This document shows positions 10,635 through 13,291 of a DNA stretch of 64,000 bases, piece by piece. Below the pieces are notes generated by a model that was given only the letters and a program-made list of their open reading frames with translations, did not search any database and had not been told where the DNA came from. A program made the translations under genes and the position numbers. Position 1 is the first letter of the stretch. Each line of letters begins with the position of its first letter. Origin of the DNA: Prochlorococcaceae cyanobacterium jk18x22bins.40 (lineage in GTDB: Bacteria; Cyanobacteriota; Cyanobacteriia; PCC-6307; Cyanobiaceae); NCBI GenBank assembly GCA_022826155.1, contig JAJDVL010000034.1, forward strand, positions 1 to 64,000. The letters are read 5' to 3'.

Positions 10635-11096
10635 TTAATTGTCATACCAGTCAGGGCACTTCTCGTAGCAGGCGCTGTTGCTGTCGTTTTCCCGAGCTTC
10701 CACTTTCCAGCAGCAACAGCGCCCCTGATCCCGCTGTCGGAGCAGGGCATTGGCCCATCCCCACACCAGCCTGGCCGTGGCCTCCATGCCCACGTTCTCC
10801 AGCACCCGCAGATCCAGCGCCCCCAACTGGTGCAGCCGTTGCCACTCCGCCAGCAGGGGATCATCGCTGTTCACCAGGAAGGTGTGATCAAACTGCTCTG
10901 CCAACTGCCGCTGCAGAGGACCCAGGCTGGAGAAATCCACCACAAAGCCGTGTTCGTCCAGGTGGGTAGCGGCAAACCAAAAGGTGAAGGAGCGGCTATA
11001 GCCATGGACAAAACGACAGTGACCCTGGTGGCGCCACTGGCGGTGACAACAGGGGAAATCCGTAAAGGCTTTGCTGCAGGTGTAGGGACTCCTCAT
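10635..11096 (-). CDS. 6-pyruvoyl-tetrahydropterin synthase/QueD family protein (divergent)
   Basis: A 153-residue protein. It keeps the family pattern of a reactive Cys followed by His ligands (CCHRQW and [10 protein letters not shown]), the VVDFSSL strand, FDHTFLV, and the C-terminal KVEAREN glutamate. The spacing differs from E. coli QueD, and an insert with CCCW follows, so the substrate is uncertain. 7-cyano-7-deazaguanine (queuosine) synthesis is plausible, because queF is also in this window at 17505. It lies 30 bases upstream of pdxJ on the same strand. Confidence 0.78.
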
Positions 11097-11170
11097 GGGC
11101 CGGGCAGGAGAGTGGGGTCATGGCCAGGGTGGTCCCCTGTGGGGGACAATCACCGAAGGTTCAACGGACC

Positions 11171-11923
11171 ATGACCTATCCTGCTGCCCCGGAGCCGGGC
11201 CATGGCGCCCTGCCGGTGTCTTCCGTCCCCTCCCACCAGCCCTTGCAATGCCCTCCCCTGGAGATGCTGCGTTTTGATGATGCAGGGCTGATTCCCGCCA
11301 TCGCCCAGGACTGGCTGGATGGCGCCGTACTGATGGTGGCCTGGATGAATCGGGCCAGCCTGGAGCAAACCGTGGCCACAGGGGAGGCCCACTACTGGAG
11401 CCGCTCCCGGCAGGAACTCTGGCACAAGGGGGCCACCTCCGGGCATTATCAGCGGGTGCGCAAGTTGCGCTACGATTGCGATCAGGACGTACTGTTGCTC
11501 ACGGTGGAGCAGGTGGGGGACGTGGCCTGCCACACCGGTGCCCGCAGTTGCTTTTACGACTCTGGCGCCGAGCCGTCTCCCGGCGGTCCCCACGCCCCGG
11601 CTCCCCCGGCTGACGCAGTATCCGAGTTGTACCAACTGATTGTGCAGCGCCGCCAGCAGCCGGAAGACGGCAGCTACACCAACGCCCTCTTCCGCGGTGG
11701 GGACAACCGCATTCTCAAGAAAATCGGCGAGGAATCGGCAGAGTTGGTGATGGCCTGCAAGGACGACGACGCCAACGCCATCAGCGCTGAAGCCGCTGAC
11801 GTGCTCTACCACATGCTCGTGGCCCTGGCCCACCATGGCGTACCCTGGCGCCAGGTTCTGTTGGAGTTGGCCCAGCGCCGGAACAAGTCCCGACCTGGCC
11901 AGGCCAACCTGCCACCGACTTAA
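11171..11923 (+). CDS. hisIE: Bifunctional phosphoribosyl-AMP cyclohydrolase / phosphoribosyl-ATP pyrophosphatase HisIE
   Basis: Steps 2 and 3 of histidine synthesis in one chain. The N-terminal HisI half has [13 protein letters not shown], the YWSRSR block and zinc/magnesium ligands in CDQDVLL and CHTGARSCF. The C-terminal HisE half has [23 protein letters not shown] and the [11 protein letters not shown] helix. About 250 residues. Start at ATG 11171 with GAAGG upstream. HisZ of the same pathway is at 59920, so his genes are dispersed. It is followed after two bases by the glycine-repeat gene. Confidence 0.92.
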
Positions 11924-11925
11924 CT

Positions 11926-12306
11926 GTGTCCAAATCCTGTCTCCAGGAGAGCGCTGCCTTGACCACCCCTGCCGAACCCAGGCCGGCCCATTGCGGCTCA
12001 CGCCCCAAGAAAATTGCCTTTGGCATTGCCCCGCTGGGGGTGATTTCCATTGGCATTGTGCCCATGGGGGTGGTGGCCATTGGGGTGGTACCCATGGGGG
12101 TGGTGAGCCTTGGCGCCGTGGCCATGGGGGTGATCACCGGCTCGGTGGTGGGCATGGGGGTGCTCACGGCCGGCGTCAGCACCATGGGGGTCTGGTTTGT
12201 GGGCAGTGACGCGGGAAGCATGGGCCTGGTGCGCCTTGGTCCTGGCGCCAAGGATCCCCATCACGGCCACCACGGGTCCCATGGCCATAGCCATGGAAGC
12301 GATTAA
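11926..12306 (+). CDS. Small hydrophobic protein with a glycine every fifth residue and a His-rich tail; unknown function
   Basis: A 126-residue frame starting at GTG 11926, two bases after hisIE; a downstream start is possible. Residues 33-93 have glycine at 33, 38, 43, 48, 53, 58, 63, 68, 78, 83, 88 and 93, with Ser at 73. The intervening residues are V, I, A, M and P (units such as GVVPM and GVVAI). The tail, from about 112, is HHGHHGSHGHSHGSD, likely metal-binding. The DNA carries a matching 30-base periodicity around CCCATGGGGGTGGT. A membrane-inserted or beta-roll fold is possible; I recognise no named family. Confidence 0.65.
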   Translation: MSKSCLQESAALTTPAEPRPAHCGSRPKKIAFGIAPLGVISIGIVPMGVVAIGVVPMGVVSLGAVAMGVITGSVVGMGVLTAGVSTMGVWFVGSDAGSMGLVRLGPGAKDPHHGHHGSHGHSHGSD

Positions 12307-12384: not shown

Positions 12385-12456
12385 GGTCGATTAGCTCAGT
12401 GGTAGAGCGCATCCTTCACACGGATGATGTCACTGGTTCAAATCCAGTATCGACCA
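12385..12456 (+). tRNA. tRNA-Val (anticodon CAC)
   Basis: A 72-base cloverleaf. Acceptor GGTCGAT pairs with ATCGACC, D-arm GCTCAGTGGTAGAGC, anticodon stem CATCC/GGATG around loop TTCACAC (anticodon CAC), T-arm ACTGG-TTCAAAT-CCAGT, discriminator A. No CCA is encoded. A methyltransferase frame on the opposite strand ends inside it at 12416. Confidence 0.93.
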
Positions 12457-13291
12457 TGTCTGAATTCCGGTCATTGTCCTGGGGGCGGACAAGGCGTGCT
12501 GGCGGTGGGGCTTGGCCTGTGATCGGAGCCCCATGGGCCGCCGCCGTTTTCCGAGCAATATAATAACCGTAGCCGACAAAAGCTTTATATTTCTCATAAA
12601 ATAGAATTTCATTCTCTTCAGCTTTAATAATCGCCCTTGCTGCGGCAGACTTTTTATGTCGCTCCAGAAATCCGGCAAAGCGCTTCTGTATGGGGCGATA
12701 GTAATTGTCAAGCCAGCAGTTCTCAGGCAGCACAAAGTAGCCTAGCGGCAAGAACCCCAGGCGTTCCAGGATGTCCATCTTGGCAGAGGCAGTATCCACC
12801 TTCGGGTACTCCCTATCCCAATAGGCCTGAAGTTCCTCTGGACGCTCCTCGGTCAGCCAGGTCAATTCGGATACAGCAAGGATCCCGCCCGACTTCAGAT
12901 ATTTCCGCCATGCTTCAATCCCTTCTGCAAATCCCATGTTGTAGATTGCGCCCTCCGACCAGATGGCATCCAGTTCTTCCTCCGCAAAAGACAGTTGCTC
13001 CATGGACTCTGTGCGAGTGACGACGTGATCGGCCACCCCGATGCGGCTGGCGGCCTCTGCGAGTCTGTTGAGAAATTCCGGATGAATATCAACGGCCGTG
13101 ATGTGGGCATCCAGTGTCTTGGCCAGTACGAAAGTTGCGGCGCCAGAGCCACAGCCAATGTCGGCAATCTTCAGCTCCCTTGACTTTTTAAGTCCTGAAA
13201 GCGTGATCGCAAGACGTGTTTGTTCCTCACCACCTGGCCCTTGCCGCTGGGCGTCCTGATACAAATCGACGAGAAGTTGCACATTGTCCAT
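12416..13291 (-). CDS. Class I SAM-dependent methyltransferase, 3' end running into tRNA-Val
   Basis: Motif I is IADIGCGSGAATFVLA (about 42-57), followed by VDIHPEFL, an acidic motif III region near WSEGAIYN, and GGILAVSELTW. Overall it resembles UbiE/small-molecule methyltransferases; the substrate is unknown. The last codons (from DMVDTGFEP) are the antisense of the tRNA gene at 12385-12456, and the stop lies in the tRNA anticodon arm, so the natural C-terminus was probably lost or fused. The true domain likely ends near residue 245 (YGYYIARKT). Surrounded by decayed sequence, which suggests acquired DNA next to a tRNA. Confidence 0.75.
   Translation of the reverse strand: MDNVQLLVDLYQDAQRQGPGGEEQTRLAITLSGLKKSRELKIADIGCGSGAATFVLAKTLDAHITAVDIHPEFLNRLAEAASRIGVADHVVTRTESMEQLSFAEEELDAIWSEGAIYNMGFAEGIEAWRKYLKSGGILAVSELTWLTEERPEELQAYWDREYPKVDTASAKMDILERLGFLPLGYFVLPENCWLDNYYRPIQKRFAGFLERHKKSAAARAIIKAEENEILFYEKYKAFVGYGYYIARKTAAAHGAPITGQAPPPARLVRPQDNDRNSDMVDTGFEPVTSSV

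Follow-up and report, generated by a model that had tools for sequence, protein, structure and literature searches.

A conserved GLTT-repeat protein with a histidine-rich tail in a sponge-symbiont cyanobacterium, a candidate component of metal supply

Introduction

What might a small protein do whose glycines recur at every fifth position and whose chain ends in a cluster of histidines? The question is raised by a reading frame in the 64,000-nucleotide stretch of cyanobacterial DNA analysed here (the window). Judged by its nearest relatives, the host genus is that of the ‘Candidatus Synechococcus spongiarum’-type sponge symbionts. A first-pass annotation of the window had described the glycine pattern, proposed a regular structure with a metal-binding end and known of no named family of this design. 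Here, we place the protein in its family, compare its repeat core and C-terminal end among relatives, and evaluate what its gene neighbourhood suggests about function.

Family membership and distribution

A Pfam search assigned the protein to PF01744, the GLTT repeat (E 3.5e-14, in several stretches; 52.5 bits, cut-off 21), and the same model matches all 42 aligned relatives, so that a named family does exist. The model takes its name from C. elegans proteins that contain xGLTT repeats. Its likeness to the window protein lies in the tandem five-residue unit with in-register glycine, whereas the unit found here, G-V-V-P/A/S-M/I/L, differs in sequence and is accompanied by a ten-residue methionine period and a histidine tail. 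Pentapeptide-repeat (Rfr) proteins, which form a quadrilateral β-helix, likewise have small residues in register at a period of five. However, the window protein is without their A(D/N)LXX consensus, its period-ten alternation is unlike Rfr, and it gave no match to the Pfam pentapeptide model up to E 10. Among NCBIfam models none matches the window protein. Both PF01744 and the second domain of the family, DUF3721 (PF12518), are catalogued in Pfam without assigned function, and in the open-access literature we found no paper on ‘GLTT repeat’ or ‘DUF3721’.

The homologue search that the annotation had recommended revealed relatives across the picocyanobacteria and in distant cyanobacteria. Copies within the sponge-symbiont genus are 82-93% identical, and those across Prochlorococcus, Synechococcus and Cyanobium about 50-74%. 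Within the window's cyanobacterial family 98 of 121 genomes have a homologue, and in a sample of 291 cyanobacterial genomes PF01744 is present in 71 (33 of 113 genera); viral contigs and phage records yielded no phage copies. Several Prochlorococcus-like genomes (L126, L155, L156, L158, L159) have, directly downstream of the main gene, a tandem GLTT paralogue that is short and has no tail. In one of them (L158:9633-9788, genome G018) the main gene is broken by an in-frame TGA and is probably a pseudogene or a sequencing error.

Coding status and start site

The G+C-rich stretch is open in other frames too, as would be expected if the reading frame were spurious or its repeat a coincidence. Against this speak homologues at the protein level, spread over dozens of genera, and the pattern of divergence: over 85 aligned codons the window differs from seven genomes of the same genus at 8-20 third, 1-3 first and 0-2 second codon positions. 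The annotation would have been refuted by missing homologues and non-coding codon statistics; what was found is a widespread family with synonymous-biased divergence. On this comparative evidence the frame at 11926-12306 (+) is a genuine coding gene, and the probability of a spurious one is negligible. A chance or non-coding origin of the repeat frame was ruled out by the third-position bias, the homologues and the shuffles described below.

Two readings of the frame are listed in Table 1; residue numbers follow the 126-residue one, from GTG 11926. The alignment shows CC-TTG-ACC-AC around TTG 11959 in 8 of 8 genomes and AGGAG/GAGAG ahead of it in most relatives, not all, whereas the stretch upstream of this codon is not conserved. 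For these reasons translation likely starts at TTG 11959 rather than at GTG 11926.

Table 1. Coordinates of the GLTT-repeat gene, its parts and its neighbours in the window
Feature	Position	Strand	Remarks
Most likely CDS, GLTT-repeat protein	11959..12306	+	TTG start, 115 aa; Pfam PF01744 match, homologues, third-position bias
Longer reading of the ORF	11926-12306	+	GTG start, 126 aa
AGGAG, Shine-Dalgarno-like	11945..11949	+	9 bases before TTG 11959
N-terminal motif C-G-S-R-P-K-K, conserved	11992..12012	+	Cys and Pro invariant in 42 sequences
Core, Gly at every fifth residue	12022..12204	+	Met before every second Gly (M47, 57, 67, 77, 87)
His-rich tail HHGHHGSHGHSHG	12259..12297	+	Occupies the site of the DUF3721 domain in free-living relatives
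hisIE	11120..11923	+	Directly upstream of the GLTT gene; same in same-genus copies with flanking sequence
QueD/6-pyruvoyl-tetrahydropterin synthase-like gene	10635..11096	-	TIGR03367, 42.8 bits, below cut-off

A gap-free repeat core

The described pattern of twelve glycines in a strict period of five proved accurate. Glycine fills 12 of 13 period-five slots (residues 33, 38, 43, 48, 53, 58, 63, 68, 78, 83, 88 and 93), with Ser73 as the sole non-glycine slot, and the series spans exactly 61 residues (33-93); among 20,000 shuffles of the protein the maximum was 10 slots, and 12 were never reached. The hydrophobic residues between the glycines form a regular, conserved repeat, and the 30-base DNA periodicity was recovered by TRF at 12013-12132 (78-79% matches), where it corresponds to the ten-residue double repeat G-V-V-P-M-G-V-V-A/S-I/L.

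A comparison of repeat number among strains, likewise recommended, showed that the 68-column core from Cys23 to Trp90 is without any gap in 42 of 42 aligned sequences. In one genome, G181, a single unit of five residues has been lost when compared with its sister L175. Repeat number is thus nearly fixed, which favours a folded structure over a slippery repeat. Methionine precedes Gly48, 58, 68, 78 and 88 in every one of the 42 rows, giving five invariant sites spaced by ten, and proline stands two residues before Gly38, 48 and 58 in all of them. Across 14 distant cyanobacterial members, the positions preceding successive glycines are taken alternately by a hydrophobic residue and by histidine or methionine, as in the series VHVHIHIFMAM in L129 and IHIHIHIVMLM in L140. 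The picocyanobacterial core holds no histidine (0%, versus 10.3% in the tail).

Histidine tail and DUF3721

The histidine-rich tail, residues H112 to G124 of the window protein, represents a family trait; 2-7 histidines are found in the tail of 14 of 14 distant cyanobacterial members. Most picocyanobacterial homologues, and most of the free-living relatives, carry DUF3721 as their C-terminal domain; it was detected in 32 of the 42 aligned sequences. Its pattern C-x-G-x-H-x-M-G-x2-W-M-P-C-x2-H holds cysteine, histidine and methionine in fixed places, and 48 of 81 copies have a WMPC-type end. No match to PF12518 came from the window protein, or from the window genome and nine others of its genus (together G000-G009). 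In the nearest genus (L165) a degenerate DUF3721 (33.5 bits) is followed by HHHHH, which fits a loss of the domain in the symbiont genus with the histidine tail retained. Placed on a tree, the tail type requires about seven changes, with a short alignment that limits resolution. In many genera DUF3721 is also found in a small gene of its own, which lies 80-150 bases upstream of the GLTT gene in the same orientation and whose start looks like a signal peptide or lipobox by eye. The proposed metal-binding end thus gains comparative support from the tail histidines across the family and from metal-related neighbours, and the binding itself stays putative.

Association with the zinc-uptake locus

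In the window, a divergent queD-like gene, hisIE and the GLTT gene form a conserved queD-hisIE-GLTT block; HisI is a known zinc enzyme. Just downstream lies a tRNA-Val (CAC) at 12385-12456, and the nominal end of a methyltransferase-like ORF (12416-13291, minus strand) runs antisense through it, so that its C-terminus may be interrupted or misread.

In relatives from several genera (L166, L168-L173, L157) queD, hisIE and the GLTT gene adjoin znuA, znuC, zur and znuB. The order in L170 and L172 is znuA-znuC-zur-znuB-TIGR03943/ArsP_1 permeases-GLTT-queD-hisIE, and some loci have a TIGR03943 permease subunit and an ArsP_1 permease between znuB and GLTT. The window block is accordingly one side of a longer arrangement, which in relatives has the zinc-uptake locus on its opposite side. 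The annotation had asked for an association with metal-related genes, and one was found: among the 66 genomes with both a GLTT gene and znuB, the GLTT gene lies within 10 kb of a Zur-type znuB on the same contig in 19 genomes from 11 of 36 genera, where 0.85 genomes are expected assuming 1.9-Mb genomes and independence, with related genomes counted as independent. Within 5 kb there are 12 genomes versus 0.43 expected on the same assumptions, which make the count of 11 genera the safer figure. The neighbourhood searches followed genes first noticed by eye. The other ABC-3 permease type served as a control: in 28 genomes it was never within 10 kb of the GLTT gene, and in one Prochlorococcus genus (g17) the distance is about 20 kb. 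Within the window's own genus, znuB, znuC and znuA are 6.6-8.8 kb from the GLTT gene in G005, and in the window genome znuB is on a different contig. The GLTT gene of marine Synechococcus and low-light Prochlorococcus has another Fur-family gene as its direct neighbour.

A Zur box was seen between znuC and znuA in L144. Upstream of the GLTT gene none was convincing in the loci scanned; the best window site matches 8 of 16 positions, and shuffles average 8.7. RNA-seq of Synechococcus WH8102 under low zinc or without Zur found only znuC, znuA and two unknown genes upregulated (PMC9337993), and the GLTT gene is not evident among these four. Histidine-rich zinc-handling segments are described for the ZnuA loop and the ZinT N-terminus (PMC10957091); the likeness is a flexible histidine-rich segment and, in relatives, a gene in the znu locus, whereas no relation in sequence or fold was found for the GLTT protein.

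A His/Met-rich porin-like gene is divergent and upstream of the DUF3721-GLTT pair in L144 (8168-9364), and also in L162 and L175. A histidine-rich outer-membrane-like protein lies within the znu loci of one genus (L157:6282-7232, L172:2675-3646); it is ‘ZepA-like’ by eye only, its Pfam match falling below cut-off.

Predicted structure and alternative readings

AlphaFold2 modelled the GLTT protein with seven short strands ten residues apart, at a core pLDDT of about 50-63 and a pTM of 0.28; in the Synechococcus WH7803 version (L067:5007-5486) the DUF3721 end is a helix plus hairpin with pLDDT of about 88-92. Sequence search found no solved relative in the PDB, and a fold search gave no match at E <= 0.001. 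The best matches (E 0.6-1.0) are partly trimeric phage-spike β-helices, at a model confidence too low to interpret. The annotation's proposed shape, possibly membrane-embedded or a β-solenoid, therefore gains no support comparable to that for the metal-binding end; solenoid, trimer and membrane forms are all candidates. The core is hydrophobic, with a 19-residue Kyte-Doolittle mean peaking at 2.0-2.5 and about 60 residues of high hydropathy. This property, together with the permease genes near GLTT in L168, L170 and L172, could point to a membrane-embedded pore or permease accessory built of the hydrophobic repeat. With glycine and proline recurring every 5-10 residues, ordinary transmembrane helices would be hard to form, and the model, at low confidence, predicts short strands rather than helices, so that we consider a membrane role very unlikely.

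Methionine is itself hydrophobic and could fill the core of a β-solenoid. The protein might then be a structural or scaffold protein, with a histidine tail and neighbourhood that are incidental or hitch-hiking; several distant members do sit among unrelated genes, and the case for metal binding is drawn from sequence and neighbourhood. Simple packing fits less well with distant members having histidine instead of methionine at these alternating sites, with the conserved tail histidines and with the 11 genera in which the gene lies near znuB, which leaves the scaffold reading unlikely. If a metal is bound, it may be copper. Methionine is a Cu(I) ligand and a poor zinc ligand, and distant lineages provide copper contexts: in L129 the order is petJ (cytochrome c6)-GLTT-DUF1775-CopC/CopD, and in G253/L134 and G203 the GLTT gene adjoins a BlaI/CopY-type regulator, which we take to be the petRP copper switch. 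The Met/His ladder would then bind Cu(I) in copper handling tied to plastocyanin and cytochrome c6, and the zinc neighbours in picocyanobacteria would be secondary. Set against 19 genomes near znuB there are just three such contexts, and we hold copper instead of zinc to be an unlikely reading.

To the reading we prefer, a small transition-metal-binding protein of cyanobacterial metal supply, with zinc the most likely metal in this lineage and copper possible, we give about an even chance. It is suggested by the gap-free Gly-x4 core with methionine or histidine at every second repeat, by the retained histidine-rich tail, the DUF3721-type ends and the DUF3721 gene directly upstream in many genera, and by the recurrent place in the Zur/znuABC locus together with the copper contexts. 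It is weakened by the lack of a convincing Zur box upstream, by the absence from the WH8102 list (PMC9337993), and by counts that ignore kinship around neighbours first picked by eye; for zinc in particular, the poor ligand quality of methionine and the separate contig of znuB in the window genome also count against it.

Conclusions

If the protein serves metal supply, its core may fold as a compact β structure displaying a Met/His ladder, which could act as a metal store or relay, and the flexible histidine tail, or DUF3721 in relatives, would capture incoming metal and hold it or hand it on. We infer metal binding, the location of the protein and the direction of transfer from sequence features and a gene neighbourhood that are themselves observed. 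A more specific version, distinctly improbable at present, has the Gly-x4 core as a β-solenoid-like rod, with methionine or histidine every ten residues as a ladder along which Cu(I) or Zn(II) would be held or conducted and the tail or DUF3721 as its loading site; if true, such a rod would be a previously undescribed class of metal-handling protein.

The family itself was already named; what is new is a functional lead for it, and the same evidence provides the first such lead for both PF01744 and PF12518. The Met/His ladder offers a testable binding hypothesis. Zinc and copper are very scarce where marine picocyanobacteria live, and a conserved, unstudied family that recurs beside zinc-uptake genes is a candidate for a missing component.
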